DNA of 64,000 nucleotides from Methylohalobius crimeensis 10Ki (GCF_000421465.1 NZ_ATXB01000002.1:124001-188000), one strand, 5' to 3'; positions 37,536 through 54,984 are shown, counted from the first letter of the stretch. A program made the numbers and translations. The notes: a model not told the origin generated them from the letters alone.

Positions 37536-37982
37536 ATGGAAGCTTATCTGAGTCTGTTTTTCATCTCTTTCCTGGCCGCCACCCTGCTGCCCGCCTATTC
37601 GGAAGTCGTTTTCGCCGGACTTCTGGCGGCCGGCTACGACCCGCTCCCCCTGTGGGCCTGGGCGACCGCGGGCAATACTCTGGGAGCGGCGGTCAACTGG
37701 GTGCTGGGACGTTATCTTTTGCATTTCCAGGATCGACGCTGGTTTCCCTTTCGCGCCGCCAACCTGGGACGCGCGCAACGTTGGTTCCAACGCTACGGCG
37801 TATGGTCGCTGCTGATGGCGTGGGCCCCGGTGGGCGGCGACGCCCTGACCTTCATCGCCGGCTTCATGCGGGTGCGCTTCGACGTTTTCTTTCTCCTCAC
37901 CGGGATAGGCAAAGGAGTGCGCTACGCCATCCTGCTGGGGCTGATGAATTGGATAGACGGTTTATTGCCCTTGGTCGGGTGA
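37536..37982 (+). CDS. YqaA-like VTT (DedA-type) membrane protein
   Basis: A 148-residue membrane protein with four to five hydrophobic stretches, matching the YqaA branch of the SNARE-associated/VTT family: PAYSEVVFAGLLAAGYDPLPLWAWATAGNTLG, then RWFQRYGVWSLLMAWAPVGGDALTFIAGFMR. Relatives move lipids across the membrane or affect envelope homeostasis. It begins 10 bases after the amidotransferase-like gene, so it belongs to that operon. Its 3' end overlaps the convergent nasA by 21 bases. Confidence 0.85.
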   Translation: MEAYLSLFFISFLAATLLPAYSEVVFAGLLAAGYDPLPLWAWATAGNTLGAAVNWVLGRYLLHFQDRRWFPFRAANLGRAQRWFQRYGVWSLLMAWAPVGGDALTFIAGFMRVRFDVFFLLTGIGKGVRYAILLGLMNWIDGLLPLVG

Positions 37983-40625
37983 TTGACGAAGCCATGCTTC
38001 CAACTCCGGCAGACACGAGCCGCAGTTGCTTCCCGCCCCGAGTTGCCGGCCGATGTCCTCCACCGAAGTCAGTCCTTGCTCGATGGCCTGGCGGATCGCC
38101 TGCTCGGATATCCGAAAACAAGCACAAACCGTCCGCTCGCCGCCGCACCCGCTGGCCGAATGGCCGCTCACCAACCGCATCCGGTCGTCGCGGGTGAGGA
38201 CCGGTTTCTCGAACAAATCGTTCAGGCTTTCGCGGGGCGGAAGATCGGGATCGGGACCGATGAAAATGGCCGCCTCCAGCTTCTCGCCGTTCAACACCGC
38301 CGCCCGGTATTGATTGCGGAGGGTGTCGTGATATTCGATCCAAATATCTCCTTCCGTCCCCAATAGTTCGCGCGCCCGTCCCGCCCATTCGGGGGGAGCG
38401 GCGTCGCCGGCGGCCTCGTAACGCCAGAGCGCCTCCCCCGCCCGGACGCGGGCCCAGTAACGGGCGTACCGGAGGCGGGGATGGATTGCCTTTCGGCTGA
38501 GGACGAAACCGTACCAGGCGCATGGGCAGGGACGGATCGCGGCCGGCGCGTGCTTGAATTCCGGCTGGCCGGAAATCGGATCGGTATTCGCCGCCACCAG
38601 GGTATTGACCCGCCCTTGCCCGGTGAATTGCCCGTTCCAGTGCATGGGAACGAACAGGCTGCCGGGGCGCTGCCGCTCGCTGAGTTTGACTCGCATCAGG
38701 ACTTCTTTCCCATCCTTTCCCCGCACCCAGGCCAGACCTTGTTCCGTCAGACTCAGATTTCGGGCATCGTCGGGATGGATCTCCACGAACGGTTCGGGCG
38801 CATGGCCGGCCAAGCGCGGCACGGCGCCGGTGCGCGCCATGGTATGCCACTGATCGCGTACCCGCCCGGTGTTGAGCACGAACGGTAGATCATTATCCGG
38901 CAACCGGGCGGGGACTCTCGGGGTGACGGCGACGAAGCGGGCGCGGCCGTTGGGAGTCGGGAAACGGCCATCCCCGAACAGACGCGGGGTGCCTCGAGGA
39001 GCGGCGACGGTCACCGGCCACGGCAGCGGTTCCAACTCATCGTATTCGGCGTCGGTCAAATCGGCCAGAACACCGATATCGAACTGCCTTTCGCCAGCGT
39101 TTTCGAATCCCGACAGGGCGGCGTGCTCGCGGAAAATCGCCGCCGGCGAGGCGTAGTCGAATTGCGCTCCGTACCCCATCGCCTTGGCCACCCGGGAAAC
39201 GATCCACCAGTCGGGACGGGCCTCTCCGGGCGGCGTCCGAAAGGAGCGCTGCCTGGAAACGATTCGGCTGGAGTTGGTCACGGTGCCGTCCTTCTCTCCC
39301 CAGGTGGCGGCGGGAAGGAGCACATCGGCGAGCGCCGCGGTATCGGTATCGCCGACGCAATCGGACACCACCACGAATTCGCAATCGGCCAAAGCCCTCT
39401 TGACCTGGTCCGCGTCGGGCAGGCTCACCACCGGATTGGTGGCCATGATCCAGACCGCCTTGATCTTGCCCGAGGCGATCGAATCGAACAATTCCACCGC
39501 CTTGAGACCGGGTTCGGACGCCACCCGGGGAGCGTCCCAGAAGCGCCCCACCCGTTCCCGGGCGATCGGATCCTCGATTGCCATGTGCGCGGCCAATTGG
39601 GTTGCCAGTCCGCCCACTTCACGTCCGCCCATGGCGTTGGGTTGCCCGGTGAGAGACAGCGGTCCGCAGCCCTTCCGGCCGATACGGCCGGTGAGCAGAT
39701 GGCAGTTGAGCAAGGCGTTGAGCTTGTCGGTGCCGCTGGAAGACTGGTTGAGCCCCTGGGAATAGCAACTCACCACCCGGCGGCTTGCGGCGAACCGGGC
39801 GTAGAAGGTGCGGACCAGATCCGGGGGCAAATCGCACGCCCGGGCCACGGTTGGGATGTCCGGCGCACTGGCTTCGGCCTCGGCAAGAGCCGCTTCCAGC
39901 CCTTCCGTATGTTCGCGGACGAAGATCTCGTCCATGCAGCCGCTTCCGTGCAAATAGTGCAGCAGACCATTGAACAAGACCGCATCGCTGCCCGGCTTCA
40001 GGGGCAGATGCAAGGAAGCGCGATCGGCGGTGTAAGTGCGCCGGGGATCGATCGCCACCACGTAAAGCTTCGGGTTTTCCCGCTTCGCCTCGGCGAGACG
40101 CCGAAACAACACCGGGTGGCACCAGGCCAGATTGGTACCCGCCAGCACCACCAGGTCCGCCCGGCTCAAATCCTCGTAAGACGCCGGGACGCAATCCTCG
40201 CCGAACGCGCGCTTGTGCGCCATCACCGGCGACGACATGCAGAGCCGCGAGTTGGTGTCGATGTTGGCCGAACCGATGAATCCTTTCATCAACTTGTTGG
40301 CGACGTAGTAATCCTCGGTCAGAAGCTGCCCCGACACATAAAAGGCCACCGCCTCGGGGCCACAGCGGTCGATCACCTGGCGAAACTTGCCGGCCACGGC
40401 GCCGATCGCTTCCTCCCATCCGACACGTTGGCCACGGATGCGGGGATGGCGCAGCCGTTCGGGCAAATCGACGGTTTCGGCAAGTGCGGTCCCCTTGGAG
40501 CAAAGCCGTCCTTGATTGGCGGGATGATACTCATCGCCACGGACGCTGACGCCGCCTTTTTCAAGCGTGACTTGCACGCCGCAGCCGACGCCGCAATAGG
40601 GGCAGGTGGTCCGGATCGGTTTCAT
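37962..40625 (-). CDS. nasA: Assimilatory nitrate reductase, catalytic subunit NasA
   Basis: An 887-residue cytoplasmic molybdopterin enzyme that reduces nitrate to nitrite. The N-terminal [4Fe-4S] site is C8, C11, C15 and C42. The Mo-bis-MGD domains include SRLCMSSPVMAHKRAFG with the likely Mo ligand cysteine, and the dinucleotide-binding C-terminal domain LNTGRVRDQWHTMARTG. A BFD-like [2Fe-2S] domain closes the protein (VCACFRIS...GSNCGSC), as in NasA of many Proteobacteria. The ATG at 40625 overlaps the preceding membrane gene by 4 bases. No nasB-type electron-transfer gene is nearby. Confidence 0.96.
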   Translation of the reverse strand: MKPIRTTCPYCGVGCGVQVTLEKGGVSVRGDEYHPANQGRLCSKGTALAETVDLPERLRHPRIRGQRVGWEEAIGAVAGKFRQVIDRCGPEAVAFYVSGQLLTEDYYVANKLMKGFIGSANIDTNSRLCMSSPVMAHKRAFGEDCVPASYEDLSRADLVVLAGTNLAWCHPVLFRRLAEAKRENPKLYVVAIDPRRTYTADRASLHLPLKPGSDAVLFNGLLHYLHGSGCMDEIFVREHTEGLEAALAEAEASAPDIPTVARACDLPPDLVRTFYARFAASRRVVSCYSQGLNQSSSGTDKLNALLNCHLLTGRIGRKGCGPLSLTGQPNAMGGREVGGLATQLAAHMAIEDPIARERVGRFWDAPRVASEPGLKAVELFDSIASGKIKAVWIMATNPVVSLPDADQVKRALADCEFVVVSDCVGDTDTAALADVLLPAATWGEKDGTVTNSSRIVSRQRSFRTPPGEARPDWWIVSRVAKAMGYGAQFDYASPAAIFREHAALSGFENAGERQFDIGVLADLTDAEYDELEPLPWPVTVAAPRGTPRLFGDGRFPTPNGRARFVAVTPRVPARLPDNDLPFVLNTGRVRDQWHTMARTGAVPRLAGHAPEPFVEIHPDDARNLSLTEQGLAWVRGKDGKEVLMRVKLSERQRPGSLFVPMHWNGQFTGQGRVNTLVAANTDPISGQPEFKHAPAAIRPCPCAWYGFVLSRKAIHPRLRYARYWARVRAGEALWRYEAAGDAAPPEWAGRARELLGTEGDIWIEYHDTLRNQYRAAVLNGEKLEAAIFIGPDPDLPPRESLNDLFEKPVLTRDDRMRLVSGHSASGCGGERTVCACFRISEQAIRQAIEQGLTSVEDIGRQLGAGSNCGSCLPELEAWLRQSPDQGQ

Positions 40626-41632
40626 GATTCCTCCTGCCGGCGACGCTTGAGCAGTATCCGCTCCGCCTGACACCCCAGGTAAACATAGATTCCCAGGCCG
40701 ATCAGCAGCCCCACCGCCGCCAGCATCATCCAGACCGCCGAACTGAGCAGTTCGGTTTCCGTCTTCAGGGATCCCTTGAACATCATCAGCAGGGCCTCAA
40801 TGGAGACGGCGATCAGAATCGCGCCGATAAACCGGGTGATGGTGCGCCGCGTGGCACTGAGACGGAAAATATCCTTGTGCAAAAGCACTTCCTCTTCCAA
40901 GGTCGTCTTGCCCAGATCGAATACCGCCAACGCCAAGGTCAGGTAAATGATGGCGCTGAGGGATTTATAGCTGAGGGTGGGGACGCGCGCGGTGGGCGTC
41001 AGCATGGCGACCAATTCGCTCCCGGCGGACAAAATCAGGGCCGCCGCGACGCTGAACAAGCCTATCGCGATCAAGGCGTAAACCGCCTTGAAATAGGGCT
41101 CCAAACGCCGCCGCTTGCTGTCGCCCTGCAAATAACTGAGGAGTTTCGCCAAGTCCACGTCCATCACCAAAAAGCGTTCCCCGCCGGAGCTCTTCAAGCG
41201 AGTGGCGGCGGATAGGCACAAGCGACTGTTGGCGGTGGAAAGATAAGGGTCGGTGACCACGTTGACCCCGTTCTGGGCGGCGGCGAGGAAATAGGGCCGG
41301 CGACTGCGATCGATCCCTTGCCCCTGATCGGGATAGGTCGTACCGCCCAACCACAAATTGGGACTGCATTGCATGCCCTGTTCGTCGAGGAAATAAATCA
41401 TCGAAACGAAAGGGTAGCGCCGCCCCAAATCCTTGAGCAGGTCTTTGGTTTTGCGGGTCTGCCAGTGGAAAAACTGCTCGTCGGCGAAACCGATGAGAAT
41501 CGATTCGATCAAGCGGCGAATCGCCTGCCGGTGTTCTCGGTGGCGTTCGATCAATTGCAAGTGGTCGATGCTGGACATGGAGTCTCCGCTGAAAACAGCC
41601 GCGGGCCGGGCACGGCGTTCGGTGAAATTCAT
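40622..41632 (-). CDS. Membrane protein with periplasmic PDC/Cache-like sensor domain
   Basis: A 336-residue protein with an N-terminal PDC-like domain (about 50-165: MIYFLDEQGMQCSPN, RRPYFLAAAQNGVNVVTDPYLST, CLSAATRLK) of the kind that binds small ligands in sensors, then four membrane segments (about 185-320) and a basic end. No kinase, GGDEF, EAL or methyl-accepting output domain is visible. The ATG at 41632 overlaps the upstream gene (ATGA), and nasA overlaps its end, so all three are one transcript behind a sigma-54 promoter. It may sense nitrate or redox state, or anchor NasA; both ideas are inference. The later ATG at 41581 is also possible. Confidence 0.7.
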   Translation of the reverse strand: MNFTERRARPAAVFSGDSMSSIDHLQLIERHREHRQAIRRLIESILIGFADEQFFHWQTRKTKDLLKDLGRRYPFVSMIYFLDEQGMQCSPNLWLGGTTYPDQGQGIDRSRRPYFLAAAQNGVNVVTDPYLSTANSRLCLSAATRLKSSGGERFLVMDVDLAKLLSYLQGDSKRRRLEPYFKAVYALIAIGLFSVAAALILSAGSELVAMLTPTARVPTLSYKSLSAIIYLTLALAVFDLGKTTLEEEVLLHKDIFRLSATRRTITRFIGAILIAVSIEALLMMFKGSLKTETELLSSAVWMMLAAVGLLIGLGIYVYLGCQAERILLKRRRQEES

Positions 41633-42129
41633 AGAATGATCAGAAAGGTGGCCAAATAAGTCGCCGTGGCGTAACCGCAGGCCAGCCAGAAGCAGAAGGT
41701 TCGGGATTTTTCCAGAAACCGATGAAAGATATGCTCCAGCACCGCCAACCACCATAGGGGGAACAACAAGAGGGTGTAAAAAGCCAACTGTTGCCTGCCG
41801 GTCTCCACCACCAGCAGCCAGATGCTCGCCGGCACCGCCAACAGACCGACCACGCTGGTCGACCCCAATAAGATTGCCAAAATGAGCCGGAAAGCCTGAC
41901 GCTTACCCACCAGAGCGGTAAGCCCCGCGGTGAAAGCCAGGATCAACATCATCTCGACGACGGTAGCCAATAAGCCTTCGGCCGGACTGGTAAAGAGACT
42001 CTGCAAAATCCAAAAAACGACGAAATAACTCCCCAGCGCATGGGTATAGATTTTCTCCAGACGCTCTATCGCAGGGAGCCGCCACATAAAGACGCACGGC
42101 GCAATGAATGTTTTGATTTCCTCGAACAT
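41629..42129 (-). CDS. Polytopic membrane protein of unknown function, first gene of the nasA operon
   Basis: A 166-residue protein with about five hydrophobic segments (LGSYFVVFWILQSLF, LLATVVEMMLILAFTAGLTALV, LILAILLGSTSVVGLL, FYTLLLFPLWWLAVL, FWLACGYATATYLATFLIIL). I recognise no family. It begins 28 bases from the expected sigma-54 transcription start and overlaps the PDC-like gene by 4 bases, so the two membrane proteins probably act together, upstream of nasA. Confidence 0.65.
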   Translation of the reverse strand: MFEEIKTFIAPCVFMWRLPAIERLEKIYTHALGSYFVVFWILQSLFTSPAEGLLATVVEMMLILAFTAGLTALVGKRQAFRLILAILLGSTSVVGLLAVPASIWLLVVETGRQQLAFYTLLLFPLWWLAVLEHIFHRFLEKSRTFCFWLACGYATATYLATFLIIL

Positions 42130-42167: not shown

Positions 42168-42184
42168 AAGCATCATCCATGCCA
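42168..42184 (-). promoter_or_regulatory. Sigma-54 promoter of the nasA operon
   Basis: On the minus strand TGGCATGGATGATGCTT has GG and GC 10 bases apart and differs little from the glnA and glnK elements. Transcription near 42158 leaves about 30 bases before the first ATG. Confidence 0.85.
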
Positions 42185-42255: not shown

Positions 42256-42272
42256 TGCACCATTGTGATGCA
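42256..42272. promoter_or_regulatory. NtrC-type dyad shared by nasA operon and cynS
   Basis: TGCACC-ATTG-TGATGCA matches the NtrC consensus TGCACC-N4-TGGTGCA at 12 of 13 defined positions. It lies about 72 bases from the nas sigma-54 site and about 97 from the cynS candidate, so a single enhancer could serve both directions. A close copy occurs at 55,299, inside a repeat-rich gap. Confidence 0.65.
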
Positions 42273-42368: not shown

Positions 42369-42385
42369 CGGCGCGAAATTTGCGT
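42369..42385 (+). promoter_or_regulatory. Candidate sigma-54 promoter of cynS
   Basis: CGGCGCGAAATTTGCGT keeps GG-N10-GC and the TTGC of the -12 box, but starts with C instead of T and has G in place of A in GGCAC. It is weaker than the other sigma-54 sites here. An initiation near 42395 would give a 45-base leader. Confidence 0.55.
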
Positions 42386-42439
42386 TATAAATAATGGATA
42401 GCTTGGTTCCACAAACCCGACAGGAGGCTTCTCTTAGCT

Positions 42440-42877
42440 ATGAATAAGCTGGAAATGACCGAAAAGATCATGGCGGCAAAATCCGAAATCGGCCTGGGCT
42501 GGGAAGCGATCGCGGAACAAGTGGGCTTGTCGCCCGTATTCTTGACTTCCGCCTGCCTGGGCATGAACAGTCTCAAGCCCGAATTCGCCGATAGGCTTTG
42601 CCAGATCCTGGGACTGCCCGCTGAAATCTCGTCCGCGTTGCAAGCATTTCCCCATAAACATTGGGATCAAATCCCCACCGATCCGGTGATTTATCGATTT
42701 CACGAAGTCATCGGCGTGTATGGAGAAACCCTCAAGGAGTTGATTCACGAAAAATTCGGCGACGGCATCATGAGCGCGATCGATTTCTCCATGGAGATCG
42801 ACAAGGAAGCCAATCCCGCCGGGGATCGGGTAGTTATCACCATGAACGGCAAATTTCTTCCCTATAAGCGTTGGTGA
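42440..42877 (+). CDS. cynS: Cyanate hydratase (cyanase)
   Basis: A 145-residue enzyme that breaks cyanate with bicarbonate into CO2 and ammonia; active as a decamer. The N-terminal half is a helix-turn-helix-like bundle (EAIAEQVGLSPVFLTSACLGMNSL), the C-terminal half carries the catalytic Arg and Glu in YRFHEVIGVYGETLK and the Ser in MSAIDFSM. AGGAGG lies 12 bases before the ATG. In many bacteria cynS adjoins an NrtABC-like transporter; here nrtABC follows but has its own promoter and leader. Confidence 0.96.
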   Translation: MNKLEMTEKIMAAKSEIGLGWEAIAEQVGLSPVFLTSACLGMNSLKPEFADRLCQILGLPAEISSALQAFPHKHWDQIPTDPVIYRFHEVIGVYGETLKELIHEKFGDGIMSAIDFSMEIDKEANPAGDRVVITMNGKFLPYKRW

Positions 42878-43133: not shown

Positions 43134-43150
43134 TGGCATGATACGTGCTT
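43134..43150 (+). promoter_or_regulatory. Sigma-54 promoter of the nrtA operon
   Basis: TGGCATGATACGTGCTT has the GG-N10-GC pattern and follows a T run. Transcription would begin about 43,160, giving a 260-base untranslated leader. Confidence 0.85.
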
Positions 43151-43223
43151 GAATATCTGCAAGTCAGGATTCGGGCGTCGACCCGGCGCGCGATTTTAAT
43201 CCAGGCAATCGGCAGATTTCGAT

Positions 43224-43246
43224 GCGTGTGGCAACGATGCCCGCGC
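43224..43246 (+). promoter_or_regulatory. ANTAR-target hairpin P1 in the nrtA leader
   Basis: GCGTGTGGC (43224-43232) and GCCCGCGC (43239-43246) pair over eight base pairs with one bulged U and close the hexaloop AACGAU. The loop has A at position 1 and G at position 4, the two conserved loop bases of ANTAR RNA targets. Confidence 0.6.
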
Positions 43247-43316
43247 CAGAACGTTTGCCCCGACAACGGCGGCTAGCGCGGCAGATCGGCGTCCCGATCG
43301 TCCGCCACAAAACAGA

Positions 43317-43334
43317 CAGGCCAAAGGCGGCCTG
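43317..43334 (+). promoter_or_regulatory. ANTAR-target hairpin P2 in the nrtA leader
   Basis: CAGGCC-AAAGGC-GGCCTG is a perfect six-base-pair stem closing a hexaloop with A1 and G4, exactly the form known for the second hairpin of NasR/EutV-type targets. It ends 12 bases before the terminator. P1 and P2 are 70 bases apart, longer than usual, but the stem at 43,268-43,306 would shorten the gap in space. Confidence 0.72.
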
Positions 43335-43346
43335 AAACGGACAACG

Positions 43347-43397
43347 GCGTCCATTATCCCGAACGAATTCGGATCGGGGTAATGGGCGCTTTTTTTT
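43347..43397 (+). terminator. Leader attenuator of the nrtA operon
   Basis: A 16-base-pair stem (43347-43362 with 43374-43389, two G-U pairs, no mismatch) with an 11-base loop is followed directly by eight T. It is one of the strongest intrinsic terminators in the window and lies 22 bases before the nrtA ATG, where it must stop transcription unless it is prevented from forming. Confidence 0.92.
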
Positions 43398-43419
43398 GGA
43401 ACAAACGGGAGAAACGCAT

Positions 43420-44844
43420 ATGACTCTCACGGTCGACAACGAATACACGAACAAGGCGGAATCCCGCCGTGGATCTCTGAAAAAAGCCTTGCTGGCCTTG
43501 GCGGCTTGCACGTTTTTGGGAGGCGCCGTCCTATCCCTTTCCGCCCGGGCGGAGATCGGCGAGGCCGAGAAGATGGACTTGAAGTTCGGCTTCATCAAGC
43601 TGACCGACATGGCGCCCCTGGCGATCGCCTACGAGAAACATTTTTTCGAGGAGGAAGGGCTTTACGTCACCCTGGAAGCCCAAGCCAACTGGAAGGTGCT
43701 CCTCGACGGTGTCATCGAGGGGCGTCTCGACGGCGCCCACATGCTGGCGGGCCAACCCTTGGCCGCGACCATCGGCTTCGGCACCCGGGCCCATATCGTC
43801 ACCCCCTTCAGCATGGATCTCAACGGCAACGGGATCACCGTTTCCAATCCGGTCTGGCAACAAATGAAGCCCAACCTTTCCAAGCTGCCCGACGGCCGGC
43901 CCGAGCATCCGATTAGCGCCGAGGCGCTGAAGCCGGTGGTGGCGCAATACAAGGCCGAAGGCAAACCCTTCAAGATGGGGATGGTCTTCCCAGTCTCGAC
44001 CCACAATTACGAGCTGCGCTACTGGCTCGCCGCGGGGGGACTCCATCCGGGGTACTATGCCCCCCACAAAGGGGATACCAGCGGGACCCTCCGGGCCGAC
44101 GTGCTGCTGTCGGTCACCCCGCCGCCGCAAATGCCCGCCACCCTGGAGGCCGGCACCATCTACGGCTACTGCGTGGGCGAGCCCTGGAATCAGCAGGCGG
44201 TGTTCAAGGACATCGGCGTGCCGGTCATCACCGACTACGAGATCTGGAAAAACAATCCGGAGAAAGTGTTCGGCATGACCAAGGCATTCACCGAGCAATA
44301 CCCCAACACCACCATCCGCGTGGTCAAGGCGCTGATCCGGGCCGCCAAATGGCTCGACGAGGACGACAACAAGAACCGCCCCGAAGCGGTGAAGATCCTC
44401 TCCCAGCCCTACTACGTGGGGGCCGACAACCAGGTGATCGCCAACTCCATGACCGGCACCTTCGAATACGAGAAGGGGGACAAGCGTTCGGTGCCCGACT
44501 TCAACGTGTTCTTTCGCTACCACGCCACCTATCCCTACTATTCGGACGCGGTTTGGTATCTGACGCAAATGCGGCGTTGGGGACAAATACCGGAGCACAA
44601 ACCGGACGATTGGTACATGCAGACGGCCAAGAAAGTCTACCGCCCCGACCTTTACCGCAAGGCGGCGGAAGCGCTGATCGCCGAAGGCAAGATGAAGCCT
44701 TCCGACTTTCCCGACTTCACCGAGGAGACGGGGTTTCGCCCCCCGCAGACCGAGTTCATCGACGGGATCACTTTCGACGGCACCCAACCCAACGCCTACC
44801 TGGAACAATTTCCCATCGGCCTGAAAGGCAAAGACAAACTCTAA
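43420..44844 (+). CDS. nrtA: Nitrate ABC transporter, substrate-binding protein NrtA
   Basis: A 474-residue periplasmic binding protein of the NrtA/CmpA family. The N-terminus has a Tat-like signal ([15 protein letters not shown], cut after SARA near residue 46). Family stretches are [32 protein letters not shown], and [12 protein letters not shown], which shape the anion site. The ATG at 43420 follows GGGAG. The family also includes bicarbonate and cyanate binders; nitrate is preferred because of the ANTAR leader and nas context, while cyanate is a fair alternative since cynS is next door. Confidence 0.92.
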
Positions 44845-44866
44845 GCCGATAAGGAGGGCAATCGCC

Positions 44867-45868
44867 ATGACGCAAACCATCGCTTCATCTCATGCCATGA
44901 CGTTTCTGAATCGTCTCACCCATTTATTCGAACGCATCGATCTGCGCCCCACCGCCCGGGGCATTCTGGCTCCCCTGCTGGCGATCGGAATATTCCTCGT
45001 GCTGTGGTCGGTGGGCGCCCGGCAAGTCCATACTTCCCTGGGCGTCCTGCCCGGCCCCGTCCAGGTATGGGAACAGAGCGTGGCGCTGTGGCAGGAGCAC
45101 CGAGCCGAGCGGGACAGGGAACAGGCCTTCTACGAGCGTCTGCAAAAACGCATCGAAAAGACTCAATCCCCGGAGAGAGTCGAGCGTCTCAGGAAGCTCG
45201 CCTATTCCGGCAGAGCGACCTTCATCGATCAGATGTTCACCAGCCTGAAGACCGTGGCGACGGGCTTTTTGCTGGCCTCTTTGATCGCCATTCCCTTCGG
45301 CATCGTCATCGGATTGAATCCCACGCTCCATCGGGCGTTCAACCCCCTCATCCAGCTCTTCAAACCAGTATCCCCCCTCGCCTGGCTGCCTCTGGTGACG
45401 ATGATCGTATCCGCCCTTTACGTCTCCAAGGACCCCGTGTTCTCCAAGGCTTACGTCACCTCGGCCATCACCGTCACCCTGTGCTGCCTGTGGCCGACCC
45501 TGATCAACACCGCGGTAGGCGTATCCGGGGTCAGTCAGGACCTCCTCAACGTCAGCCGGGTACTGCGGCTGGGCTGGTTCACCAAGACCTGGAAGATCGT
45601 CCTGCCGTCGGCGATTCCGATGATCTTCACCGGCCTGCGTTTATCTCTCGGCATCGGCTGGATGGTGCTCATCGCCGCGGAAATGCTGGCCCAGAACCCG
45701 GGGTTGGGCAAATTCGTCTGGGACGAATTCCAAAACGGCAGCTCCGACTCGCTGGCTCGAATCATGGTGGCCGTCGTCGCCATCGGCTTCATCGGGCTGC
45801 TGCTCGACCGCGGCATGCTGGGCTTGCAGAAAACGGTCGACTGGGACAAGCAGGCCGTGCTGCGCTGA
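44867..45868 (+). CDS. nrtB: Nitrate ABC transporter, permease NrtB
   Basis: A 333-residue permease with an N-terminal membrane segment, the charged loop that is usual in NrtB (about 65-120, RAERDREQAFYERLQKR), and a transport domain of five more segments with the EAA-type loop (RVLRLGWFTKTWKIVLPSAIPMIFTGLRLSLG). AAGGAGGGC lies seven bases before the ATG. It is followed by the ATPase gene after 40 bases. Confidence 0.93.
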   Translation: MTQTIASSHAMTFLNRLTHLFERIDLRPTARGILAPLLAIGIFLVLWSVGARQVHTSLGVLPGPVQVWEQSVALWQEHRAERDREQAFYERLQKRIEKTQSPERVERLRKLAYSGRATFIDQMFTSLKTVATGFLLASLIAIPFGIVIGLNPTLHRAFNPLIQLFKPVSPLAWLPLVTMIVSALYVSKDPVFSKAYVTSAITVTLCCLWPTLINTAVGVSGVSQDLLNVSRVLRLGWFTKTWKIVLPSAIPMIFTGLRLSLGIGWMVLIAAEMLAQNPGLGKFVWDEFQNGSSDSLARIMVAVVAIGFIGLLLDRGMLGLQKTVDWDKQAVLR

Positions 45869-45908
45869 TCGCCCGAGGCTATCCGACAACGAAATCAAGG
45901 AGATTTTC

Positions 45909-46778
45909 ATGACTCCCTACCTCAACATCGACCATGTGAGCATCACTTTTCCCACGGAGAAGGGGCCGCTCAATGTCCTAAACCGAATCAATCTCAAGAT
46001 GAAGCAGGGCGAGTTCGTCTCCCTGATCGGCCATTCCGGGTGCGGCAAATCCACGGTGCTCAATATCGTCGCAGGACTTTTGCAGCCCACCGAAGGCGGG
46101 GTCGTTCTGGAAAACAAGGAGGTCAACGACCCCGGACCGGAGCGGGCGGTGGTCTTCCAGAACCACTCGCTCCTGCCCTGGCTGTCGGTCTACGACAATG
46201 TCCGTCTGGCCGTCGACCGGGTATTCAGGAAAACCAAATCCAAGGCGGAACGGCACGAGTGGACCCTGACCAATCTGGAGTTGGTCCACATGAGCCACGC
46301 CCTCGAGCGCAAACCCCACGAAATCTCCGGCGGCATGAAGCAGCGGGTGGGCATCGCCCGCGCCCTGGCCATGGAGCCCAAGGTGCTGCTGATGGACGAA
46401 CCCTTCGGCGCGCTCGATTCCCTGACCCGCACCCATATGCAGGATTCCCTCATGGACATTCAGGCGCGGCTGGGCAATACCGTGATCATGATCACCCACG
46501 ACGTGGACGAGGCGGTGCTGCTCTCCGACCGGGTGGTGATGATGACCAACGGCCCCGCCGCCCGGATCGGCGAAATTCTTTCCATCGACCTGCCGCGCCC
46601 GCGCGACCGCCTGGCGCTGGCGGAGAATTCCACCTTCAACCATTACCGCGCGGAAATCGTCCGCTTCCTGCACGAGCGGCATCTGGAATCGGGGGCGGAG
46701 GACTCACCCCGCCCTCCGGGGGACAGGACGACGACGGGCGCCAAAAACCAGACCGCCAAACTTCGCTTGATCGCCTAA
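45909..46778 (+). CDS. nrtC: Nitrate ABC transporter, ATP-binding protein
   Basis: A 289-residue ATPase of the nitrate/sulfonate/taurine ABC class. Walker A is GHSGCGKST, the signature [14 protein letters not shown], Walker [13 protein letters not shown]. It lacks the NrtA-like C-terminal domain of cyanobacterial NrtC and so is equivalent to NrtD in domain content; one ATPase gene would serve as a homodimer. Good AAGGAG site before the ATG. Confidence 0.92.
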
Positions 46779-46806: not shown

Positions 46807-48042
46807 ATGAGCCTACCCTCACCCGCAGCTGCCGGCAGACGCCTCGTTCCCGGCCTGCTCATCGTCGCGCTGATCCCCTCGGTCGGTCGGTCGGACGATC
46901 TGTTGCATCCGGTCGCGGACGCGCTTCAGGGAGAATGGGGCCGGATCCAAGCCGACACCCGCTACCGCTACGAATACGTGGACGAGGAAAACGGTCGGGA
47001 GGAAGCCCACGCTTCCACCCTGCGCCTGCGGCTGGGCTATCTCACGCCACGCTTTCAGGGTTTGCAGGGCTATGCCGAAATGGAAGGCAACTGGGAAGTG
47101 GGACCCGACCGCTACAACAGCCTGCGCAACAACGAGACGGGGCGCTCCGTCGTCGCCGACCCCCAGGAAACCGAACTCAACCAGCTCTGGGTGTCGTTCA
47201 ACGCCGTCCCCGACACTTTCATCAAAGCCGGCCGCCAGCGGATCATCTATGACAACCATCGCTTCATCGGCAACGTGGGCTGGCGCCAATTGGAACAAAC
47301 CTACGACGCCGTGCGCCTGACCAACAATTCGATTCCCGATCTAACCGCCGACGTCGCCTTTCTCTGGCGGGTGCAGAACATCCTCTCGCGAACCGTGGAT
47401 ATGAATTCGCCGCTGCTGAACGTCGCCTATACCGGTCTCCCCTTCGGCAAGCTGACCGCCTACGGCTACTGGTTGGATTACGACGACCGCCGCGACAGCG
47501 CCAACTTCGCCCTTTCCAGCCAAACCTACGGGCTGCGCTTCGACGGCGGCTACGCCGTGACCGACAAAGTCAAACTGCTCTATACCGCCGAATACGCCCG
47601 GCAGATGGACTATCAGCGCAATCCCAACGATTACGCCACCGATTATTACCACTTCATGGGCGGCGTCTCGGCCTATTCCGTCACTTTGAAAGGGGCGATC
47701 GAAAACCTGACCGCCGACAATGGGGTCGGCTTCCGCACCCCGCTCGCCACGCTTCACGCTTTTCAGGGCTGGGCGGACAAATTCCTCGCCACCCCGCCCA
47801 ATGGCGTCCGCGACGTTCAGGCTTCGGTGGGAATCAATCTATGGGGCGCGACGCTCCTGGGTGTCTATCACGACTTCCACGACGAAAACGGCGGCGTCCG
47901 TTACGGCCAGGAGTTCGATGCGCTGTTGACTCGGACTTTCGGCAAACATGTCAGCGTGCTTTTGAAATACGCCTATTACGACGCCCAAAAGTTCTCCATC
48001 GATACCCACAAAGTATGGGGGCAAGTGGCGTTGAATTTCTAA
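46807..48042 (+). CDS. Outer-membrane porin of the alginate-export family type
   Basis: A 411-residue outer-membrane protein with a signal peptide (cleaved near PSVGRSDD, about residue 30) and a strand-rich barrel (ADTRYRYEYVDEENG, LRLRLGYLTP, KAGRQRIIYDNHRFIGNVGWRQ, KYAYYDAQKF) ending in F. The pattern fits the Alginate_exp porin family, whose members are mostly not alginate-specific. It lies 28 bases after nrtC and before the FNT channel, so it probably admits nitrate or nitrite to the periplasm. That substrate is inferred. Confidence 0.8.
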   Translation: MSLPSPAAAGRRLVPGLLIVALIPSVGRSDDLLHPVADALQGEWGRIQADTRYRYEYVDEENGREEAHASTLRLRLGYLTPRFQGLQGYAEMEGNWEVGPDRYNSLRNNETGRSVVADPQETELNQLWVSFNAVPDTFIKAGRQRIIYDNHRFIGNVGWRQLEQTYDAVRLTNNSIPDLTADVAFLWRVQNILSRTVDMNSPLLNVAYTGLPFGKLTAYGYWLDYDDRRDSANFALSSQTYGLRFDGGYAVTDKVKLLYTAEYARQMDYQRNPNDYATDYYHFMGGVSAYSVTLKGAIENLTADNGVGFRTPLATLHAFQGWADKFLATPPNGVRDVQASVGINLWGATLLGVYHDFHDENGGVRYGQEFDALLTRTFGKHVSVLLKYAYYDAQKFSIDTHKVWGQVALNF

Positions 48043-53135: not shown

Positions 53136-53717
53136 TTATCGCTCGGTCAGATTCTCAAGTTCCAACAAGGTCCGCGCCACGTCAACCATCTTCAAATTAC
53201 GGTTCATTGCCGTCTTGCGCAAAAGCCGGTAGGCATCGCTTTCGCTCATTCCGCGGCGCTGCATCAACAAGCCCTTGGCCTTTTCCACCACCTTGCGGTC
53301 GTTCAGATGGGTGCGGGTGTTTTCCAATTCGCGCTTGAGGACTTGAAACTCCCGAAACCGGGCCAAGGCCACCTGGACGATGGGCAGCACCCGTTCTTTT
53401 TGCAGGCCGTCCACCACGTACGCGCTGACCCCGGCTTGCACCGCTTGCTGGATATAATCCGGATCGCGCTGGTTGGAGAACAGCACGATCGGCTTGGGAT
53501 GGTCGCGGCTGACTTCGCGCATCTGCTCCAGGGTATCCCTGCCTGGCGCCTCCATGTCGATAATCACCACGTCGGGCTGATGCTCGGCCACTTTCGCGGA
53601 CAATTCACGTTCGCTTTGCAGCCGCGCGACCACCGTATGGCCGGCGTCGGAAAACGCCTGCTCCAGGACCGCGCTGCGGCCGAAATCCCGATCGACAATT
53701 AGAATTAGAAGCCCCAT
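53136..53717 (-). CDS. nasT: ANTAR-domain antitermination regulator NasT
   Basis: A 193-residue response-regulator-like protein: a receiver domain with D54 (VIIDMEAPG) and a C-terminal ANTAR domain (about 128-190: ERKVVEKAKGLLM is here DRKVVEKAKGLLM, then MSESDAYRLLRKTAMNRNLKMVDVA). ANTAR domains bind paired hexaloop hairpins in leader RNAs and prevent termination. The gene lies 4 bases after nasS, whose product holds NasT inactive without nitrate. The nrtA leader is the obvious target. Its end is 10 bases from the convergent norB end. Confidence 0.92.
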   Translation of the reverse strand: MGLLILIVDRDFGRSAVLEQAFSDAGHTVVARLQSERELSAKVAEHQPDVVIIDMEAPGRDTLEQMREVSRDHPKPIVLFSNQRDPDYIQQAVQAGVSAYVVDGLQKERVLPIVQVALARFREFQVLKRELENTRTHLNDRKVVEKAKGLLMQRRGMSESDAYRLLRKTAMNRNLKMVDVARTLLELENLTER

Positions 53718-53721
53718 GACT

Positions 53722-54984
53722 TCAGGGATTGCAAGCGGCGAGATCTTTCAGGCCGACCTTGCGCCGATGAATGGCGAAATCCGCAAGATAGCCCACCGGA
53801 TCGTCGGGATGAAAGGATTTATCGTCGCAAAACCAGTCGGGTCCCATTGACAAGGGACCGGCCGGAGTCTCGAGTGTCCAAGTCTCGGCATGGATTCCTT
53901 CCGGTTTGAGGTCCCCTTCCGGAACCGGAATGCCCAACGCGCTCGCCGCCTGTCGATAGAGATCGGGGCGGTAGACCGTTTCCGCTATCCGCCTTAAATT
54001 GATGGGCTCGACAATTTGACCCCAACGCACCATTTGGGTGAGAAACCAGAGCGCATGGGAGCGCCAGGGAAATGTGGCCGCGTAACGGTAAAAGACGTTG
54101 AAATCGGGCAGCGAAACCGGCGGCTGGCAAGCCGCATAGCGAAAGGTTCCGATCATGGACATTTTCACCACGTCGACGGGGACATCCACATAGGGCGGCG
54201 CGGACAAGATCGTCGCCACCTCGATTCGATTCTCCGGTCGGTCGATCCAGCGAGCCGCCTCCAGCAAGGCCATCAGCAATGCCTGGAGCGTATTGGGATG
54301 GGCCTCGGCCCAGTCCTGATTCACCCCCAGGACTTTTTCCGGATGATTGTTCCAGACCTCGTAACTGGTGGTCCAGACATGCCCGATGCCTCGGGCAACG
54401 GCATATTCATTCCAGGGCTCGCCGACGCAATAGCCCGCCACCTCTCCGGATTCGAGGCAGGCGGCCATTTGCGGCGGAGGGATCACGGAAAAATCCAGAT
54501 CGCTGCCGGGGTCGATTCCCGCGGCGGCGAACCAGTAACGCAGCAAGTAGGTATGCGAAGAACAGGGATACACCGAAGCGAATCGGGGCAGTCCGCGCCG
54601 CTTCCCCCTCCCGATCAGGTGCCGCAAGCCGGTTGCCGACAAGCTTTTACCGGTGGCCTTCGTGGGCGGAGGATAAAGTTCGGTGGAAAGAGTCACCGCG
54701 TTGCCGTTCAAATCCAGGGCGAGCGGCGCGATGGTTGCTTTTTTGATCCCTTCCAATCCCAAAGTCGTAGCGATCGCAAGCGGCGCCAACATATGCGCGC
54801 CGTCGAACACGCCAGCGGCGACCTTATCGCGAATATTCGCCCAGGAGGATTCCCGCGAAAGCGCCACCTCGAGACCGTATTTGCGGAAGTAGCCCTTTTC
54901 GTGGGCGATCACCAACGGCGCACAATCGGTGAGCGGGATGAACCCCAAATGCAACCGTCTTTTCTCCAGATTCTCGCCAGCCAC
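53722..54984 (-). CDS. nasS: Nitrate sensor NasS
   Basis: A protein of about 420 residues in the NrtA/CmpA binding-protein fold ([47 protein letters not shown]) but without a signal peptide, so it stays in the cytoplasm, as NasS does. It binds nitrate or nitrite and then releases NasT. The frame is open to GTG 55056, but a sigma-54 promoter at 55017-55034 lies inside that stretch, so the GTG at 54984 is the more likely start; GGGAAG precedes it closely. Confidence 0.9.
   Translation of the reverse strand: MAGENLEKRRLHLGFIPLTDCAPLVIAHEKGYFRKYGLEVALSRESSWANIRDKVAAGVFDGAHMLAPLAIATTLGLEGIKKATIAPLALDLNGNAVTLSTELYPPPTKATGKSLSATGLRHLIGRGKRRGLPRFASVYPCSSHTYLLRYWFAAAGIDPGSDLDFSVIPPPQMAACLESGEVAGYCVGEPWNEYAVARGIGHVWTTSYEVWNNHPEKVLGVNQDWAEAHPNTLQALLMALLEAARWIDRPENRIEVATILSAPPYVDVPVDVVKMSMIGTFRYAACQPPVSLPDFNVFYRYAATFPWRSHALWFLTQMVRWGQIVEPINLRRIAETVYRPDLYRQAASALGIPVPEGDLKPEGIHAETWTLETPAGPLSMGPDWFCDDKSFHPDDPVGYLADFAIHRRKVGLKDLAACNP

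Follow-up and report, generated by a model that had tools for sequence, protein, structure and literature searches.

The window analyzed here is a stretch of 64,000 nucleotides from Methylohalobius crimeensis 10Ki, part of contig C2 of a 3.5-Mb genome, and ntrBC, glnK-amt, glnA, nirB, nasS-nasT, and nrtABC all lie within it. On the minus strand, positions 37962 to 40625 encode the assimilatory nitrate reductase catalytic subunit NasA (887 amino acids), which has molybdopterin and Fe4S4 domains and a C-terminal Fer2_BFD [2Fe-2S] domain. Two genes for membrane proteins stand ahead of nasA on the same strand. The first, here called P1 (41629 to 42129), encodes 166 amino acids with about five hydrophobic segments. 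The second, P2 (40622 to 41632), encodes 336 amino acids, with a Cache/PDC domain at residues 29 to 171 and a module of four transmembrane (TM) segments at residues 184 to 330.

A sigma-54 promoter-like site, TGGCATGGATGATGCT (42169 to 42184, minus strand), lies about 40 nt ahead of P1. It has 0 mismatches and is one of two zero-mismatch sigma-54 matches in the window. An earlier, sequence-only reading had placed two membrane genes of 166 and 336 residues between a sigma-54 site and nasA, and both ORFs and the site were confirmed. An NtrC-type enhancer-like palindrome with 1 mismatch, TGCACCATTGTGATGCA (42256 to 42272, plus strand), is the window's only NtrC-box match with fewer than two mismatches and falls between the divergent P1-P2-nasA and cynS. 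The promoter-like site and the putative NtrC box are single-site matches and not proof of function, although the nitrogen genes listed above share the window with them. A candidate second sigma-54-like site, CGGCGCGAAATTTGC, occurs in divergent orientation at 42371 to 42440, ahead of cynS (cyanase), and would have the NtrC-like box in common with P1-P2-nasA.

An nrtABC-type nitrate ABC transporter is encoded at 43396 to 46778 (plus strand), and the known nitrate-sensing pair is encoded by nasT, an ANTAR regulator gene (53136 to 53717, minus strand), and nasS, which specifies a cytoplasmic NrtA-like nitrate sensor (53722 to 54984, minus strand). In the nrtA leader region (43134 to 43420), a sigma-54-like sequence, TGGCATGATACGTGCT, stands roughly 270 nt before nrtA, and inverted repeats and a T run were seen there by eye, as expected of a NasT antitermination leader. 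An Rfam scan of 36 to 47 kb gave nothing above threshold, with no curated RNA family in this leader. Behind nrtABC, positions 46807 to 48042 encode a beta-barrel protein (Pfam "Alginate_exp") that is a candidate outer-membrane porin for nitrate/nitrite; an Alginate_exp-type gene also comes after nrtABC in P2-nitrate operons from four P2 groups (12 loci).

The genes had been described as joined by ATGA overlaps throughout. The P2/nasA overlap is real, with an AGGAGG before the nasA ATG inside the end of P2, whereas the P1/P2 overlap depends on the upstream start of P2. A second ATG at 41578 (minus strand; residue 19), which gives a protein of 318 amino acids, is where P2 homologs begin. It is preceded by a GGAG ribosome site, which the upstream ATG lacks, and residues 1 to 18 are disordered in the AlphaFold2 model. 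Because these three observations favor the second ATG as the likelier start, the P1/P2 overlap is doubtful; with a start at 41578, the two genes are separated by about 50 nt.

P1 is not half of a conserved pair

P1 had no match above cut-off in Pfam and no match in NCBIfam, which, together with its roughly five hydrophobic segments, agrees with its earlier description as a five-segment membrane protein of no known family. Within the P1 family, a single Cys is nearly invariant and no His is invariant, and P1 modeled alone gave an uninformative structure (pLDDT 53). With a profile of P1 relatives, 120 of the 229 genomes sampled from the class proved to have a member, in nearly every case a single one, and the sole copy in the window's genome is the one at the nas operon. 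In four congeneric loci (L031, L032, L034, and L037), the P1 homolog lies between NnrS-like and tldD/pmbA-like genes, which were named by eye.

P1 and P2 had been proposed to act as a pair, one possible refutation being that they would be found mostly away from nitrate genes. For P1 this is the case: no nitrate gene was present within 1.5 kb at any of the 29 other P1 loci checked. The 111 P2 loci contained no P1 homolog, by profile search as well. Since the P1 profile is silent in these loci and its homologs are located away from nitrate genes, P1 is not half of a conserved pair, and P1-P2 as a conserved unit was rejected. P1 belongs to a widespread single-copy family and is probably incidental to nitrate, and we judge it to be a bystander captured at the head of the nasA operon.

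P2 combines a Cache-like domain with a separable membrane module

An AlphaFold2 model of P2 built from the alignment of 53 sequences had a mean pLDDT of 83.8. Residues 29 to 171 of this model form a PDC/PAS-like fold with a long N-terminal helix, for which Foldseek and VIA-align returned KinD, DctB, PctA, CtaA, Tlp3, and cytosolic YkuI. A P2 profile search against PDB sequences matched Mlp24, Mlp37, and PctA. P2 itself scored 19.9 bits against the dCache_1 profile (PF02743), below the Pfam cut-off of 45, and its relative L080 scored 47.9 bits, above that cut-off. Pfam and NCBIfam scans of P2 and a set of relatives found no kinase, MCP, GGDEF, or other known output domain. Profiles, predicted structure, and scans thus upheld the proposal that P2 has a PDC/Cache-like ligand domain and no known output domain.

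The best conserved region of P2 is its C-terminal half (DLGKTTLEEEVLMHKDIFRHSSTRRTITRF...), which is made up of four hydrophobic helices. This region had no match in Pfam or NCBIfam. Stand-alone four-TM proteins of about 160 to 200 amino acids match it with an hhalign probability of 99.6 (E value, 7e-24), and by these sequence comparisons, the TM part of P2 is a separate module that also occurs alone. One such stand-alone module, of 165 amino acids, is encoded in the window's own genome directly behind leuS (L002:1492-1989; G000:C1:2508292-2508717). PsiE (PF06146), suggested as the identity of the module by visual likeness, was not supported by hhalign (probability, 2 to 7%), and BAR and sorting-nexin rows in the VIA-align output were read as generic long-helix matches to the TM helices. 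SirB2 was a single weak NCBIfam match in one member only, and the annotation "general glycosylation pathway protein" gave no lead. P2 belongs to a protein family of the inner membrane, undescribed so far, whose members carry a sensor domain for small molecules.

The dCache_1 sensors PctA, CtaA, Mlp24, KinD, and DctB resemble P2 in the PDC fold of residues 29 to 171, and an RPY and T-x-P-Y ligand-side motif is common to both. The pocket residues R112, Y114, Y130, S132, and D158 are invariant across the 53 P2 sequences. The amino-acid-binding dCache_1AA motif comprises, at PctA positions, Y121, R126, W128, Y129, Y144, D146, and D173. Of these, R126, Y121, W128, Y144, and D173 of PctA have been named as motif residues (PMC10104139). 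PctA R126, Y144, and D173 are kept in P2 as R112, Y130, and D158, whereas W128 is replaced by Tyr, Y129 by Phe or Tyr, and D146 by an invariant Ser, and the position of Y121 is variable. P2 therefore lacks the full dCache_1AA motif and, with the PctA pocket only partly kept, is not a standard amino-acid Cache. Judged from these residues, P2 likely has a small-molecule site related to the amino-acid Cache pocket. Unlike the dCache_1 sensors, it has one Cache unit only, is predicted to hold it in the cytoplasm, and carries no kinase, MCP, or cyclase output.

The Cache domain of P2 is predicted to face the cytoplasm

The hydrophobic segments of P2 lie at about residues 185, 230, 277, and 310, and none precedes residue 183 in 53 homologs. 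Across 53 sequences, Lys plus Arg residues averaged 3.75 ahead of TM1, 1.43 between TM1 and TM2, 5.04 between TM2 and TM3, 0.15 between TM3 and TM4, and 3.34 behind TM4. This charge pattern is N-in/C-in and, with the Cache domain preceded by no TM segment, leads to the prediction of a cytoplasmic and not a periplasmic sensor; the Cache domain most likely faces the cytoplasm. Proteins in which no TM segment is evident (L109 and L111) carry homologous domains of this Cache subfamily as well.

Among the extracellular sensors of prokaryotes, Cache domains predominate (Upadhyay et al. 2016, PMC4822843), and all but two small Cache families are principally extracellular (PMC4822843). A cytoplasm-facing membrane version is therefore unusual. 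The usual, though not absolute, arrangement of an extracytoplasmic domain between two TM helices is absent from the predicted topology of P2. One precedent is YkuI of Bacillus subtilis (2w27/2bas), whose cytosolic Cache-fold domain YkuI_C matches the P2 model with a Z score of about 12 and belongs to a principally intracellular family (PMC4822843). YkuI is soluble and has an EAL domain, in contrast to P2, a membrane protein with a four-TM module.

These results bear directly on the proposal that P1 and P2 are a dedicated periplasmic nitrate/nitrite sensor pair acting on NasA or transport. The two genes are adjacent in one presumed operon under the sigma-54 site, and a periplasmic sensor would fit the mostly extracellular placement of Cache domains at large (Upadhyay et al. 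2016, PMC4822843). P1, however, is missing from all 111 P2 loci by profile and has its homologs away from nitrate genes, and P2 has neither a TM nor a signal segment ahead of its Cache domain and shows N-in loop charges. We consider such a periplasmic pair very improbable.

P2 and P1 lack conserved ligands of an electron carrier

The pair had alternatively been proposed to form a quinol-linked membrane electron path to NasA in place of NasB. The sequence-only reading saw no nasB-type gene next to nasA, and both P1 and P2 are membrane bound. Against this idea, the only conserved Cys of P2 is C139 in the Cache domain, with no Cys cluster, and its conserved His residues belong to the N-terminal helix and to the loop between TM2 and TM3 and form no bis-His TM pair; the P1 family has no invariant His and only the nearly invariant Cys noted above. 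Neither protein has the conserved heme or Fe-S ligands of a membrane cytochrome b or quinol dehydrogenase. Congeneric nasA genes, whose products are 61 to 69% identical, have no P1 or P2 in the fetched flanks, and P2 is also found in nrtABC operons with no nearby nasA. An electron path through P1 and P2 is thus exceedingly unlikely, and the congeners that have nasA and lack P2 show that P2 is dispensable for NasA.

P2 recurs in nitrate operons of several lineages

Gene calls in the P2 loci were made with our own codon-score script. When 369 genomes were sampled evenly across the class, without bias towards relatives of the query, full-length P2 was present in 26 other genomes, a few copies having in-frame stop codons. 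In 6 of these 26 genomes, nrtABC, nasA, or nirB lay within 8 kb of P2, and a rough estimate of the chance expectation is about 1% per genome. A second set of 80 named loci is nearest to the query family and biased towards its relatives; within it, nitrate genes were found within about 5 kb of P2 at 15 loci, with four Methylobacter loci in addition at 6 to 8 kb, and glnK/amt, likewise low copy, was near P2 at one.

The arrangement of these loci varies. P2 follows nrtC after a gap of 7 to 130 nt in L139, L147, L156, and L182 (Thiobacillus/Hydrogenophilales type) and elsewhere follows a porin-like gene that itself comes after nrtC; it stands behind nirB in L132 and ahead of nirB-nasA in two genomes. 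When neighbors were clustered across 34 P2 groups, nrtC, nrtB, nrtA, nasT, and a nirB-like reductase gene were the most recurrent, although the nrtC cluster may hold a few other ABC ATPases; a porin-like gene, an unassigned sensory-looking family, and an MFS gene came next. When the nitrate label was mapped onto a tree of 93 P2 proteins, it required 10 changes, compared with a shuffled mean of 17.5, and at least 4 changes were forced by well-supported branches. The nitrate link therefore arose or was lost repeatedly.

Other nitrogen genes also accompany P2. Locus L187 has the overlapping genes glnK-amt-ntrC-P2, and in two gammaproteobacterial genomes, P2 is divergent from nifE-nifN (L128:3903-9449 and L179:3-3122). 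A P2 relative lies near glnA/ntrBC on the Acidithiobacillus caldus plasmid mpAca1.1. This relative, WP_004867800.1 ("PDC sensor domain-containing protein"), belongs to the P2 family, with 44% identity over 79%; its gene is near glnA, ntrC, and glnL, its annotation is by domain only, and a literature search found no published function for it. Nor did that search turn up a paper connecting nasT or nrtABC operons with a Cache/PDC protein.

The proposed link to nitrate therefore holds for P2, which recurs in or beside nrtABC, nasT, nirB, and nasA operons of several lineages. The objection that the genes would lie mostly away from nitrate genes applies to it in part: most copies stand alone or in settings of another kind, yet nitrate genes are the commonest recurrent neighbors. 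Because the majority of copies are solo or have varied neighbors, the family is not nitrate specific, and nitrate is a frequent use of it rather than its definition. Chance insertion of P1-P2 at the head of nasA in this species, with no functional link, would account for the congeners that have nasA but lack P1-P2, for the failure to find P2 in any of 9 congeners searched, and for P1 being unrelated to nitrate elsewhere. The overlap of the P2 and nasA genes and the presence of the P2 family in nitrate operons of unrelated bacteria make this explanation quite unlikely.

Three further genes were seen in P2 loci. Between nrtC and P2, L141:7481-7984 and L189:7238-7747 encode a protein "X" (no Pfam match), which is the C-terminal domain of soluble Cache-X proteins (e.g., L109:4309-5271); Cache-X and the combination of X with Cache-4TM may perhaps be one signaling system. 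A gene for a proteasome-type peptidase (Pfam Proteasome) comes immediately after P2 in L147:9013-9795, L182:8986-9768, and L241:9042-9812; the peptidase is Anbu-like and in A. caldus is accompanied by transglutaminase, ATP-grasp, and alpha-E genes. Genes for single-domain globins are repeatedly present in P2-nitrate clusters (L133:5683-6096, L143:7528-7944, L189:5025-5438, and L182:10035-10427), the L189 copy being confirmed by Pfam, and may serve in nitric oxide handling.

Discussion

We favor, with moderate confidence, the reading that P2 is a membrane-tethered one-protein sensor that serves nitrogen assimilation, above all that of nitrate, through a TM output domain. The N-terminal Cache/PDC domain, predicted on the cytoplasmic side, would bind a small cytosolic molecule, most likely one that reports nitrogen or carbon status; a carboxylate, an amino acid, or some other small anion is the most plausible ligand. 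Binding would change the conserved four-helix membrane module, which in turn would act on a membrane or cytosolic partner from the same operon or regulon; the nitrate transporter, the reductase complex, and the NasT antiterminator are candidates. P2 would thereby signal through its TM module and have a regulatory rather than a catalytic role. Nitrate sensing in the window's genome is already served by NasS-NasT, which counts against this reading.

P2 could instead be a general membrane sensor of cell physiology, reading a metabolite or the redox state, for instance, that is not nitrogen specific and whose gene lies in nitrate operons only in some cases. Most P2 copies are outside nitrate operons, with varied neighbors in the class sample; Shewanella and Colwellia copies have other neighbors, and the stand-alone TM module is beside leuS in the window's genome. 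Nitrate genes are, however, the most frequent neighbors across P2 groups, the nitrate label was gained or lost repeatedly on the tree, and glnK/amt/ntrC and nif genes are neighbors as well. A general sensor is accordingly possible but doubtful.

The nitrogen sensor that we favor has a parallel in NasS-NasT of Paracoccus (PMC3795266), where cytosolic sensing controls nitrate assimilation, as proposed for P2, and nasT is a recurrent neighbor of P2. NasS is an NrtA-like soluble protein, whereas P2 is a Cache membrane protein for which binding of nitrate or NasT would be hypothetical; P2 has the Cache fold and not the NMT1_2/NrtA-like fold of NasS, which is encoded apart at 53722 to 54984. A more specific version of the sensor reading is that the target of P2 control is the NasT antiterminator; the nas/nrt operon would then answer to a cytosolic metabolite instead of, or besides, NasS-bound nitrate. 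In five near-complete genomes from three families (G061, G208, and G315; G366; G211), nasT is in the P2 operon or a few kilobases from P2, and no NasS was identified in any of the five. The only NasS/NrtA-family match in G061, G208, G315, and G366 is the NrtA of the operon, which in G061 has a visible Tat-type signal, and G211 has no NasS/NrtA-family match. Conversely, NasS is kept in the window's genome, and nasT-like genes occur with neither NasS nor P2 in G149, G265, and G363. We regard control of NasT by P2 as unlikely.

The role that we favor for P2 is directly testable in culturable hosts, namely, Methylobacter, Thiobacillus, and Shewanella. With its Cache domain predicted to face inside, its putative output module, and its nitrate company, P2 may add to NtrBC, PII, and NasS-NasT a further level of nitrogen control that has gone unrecognized.
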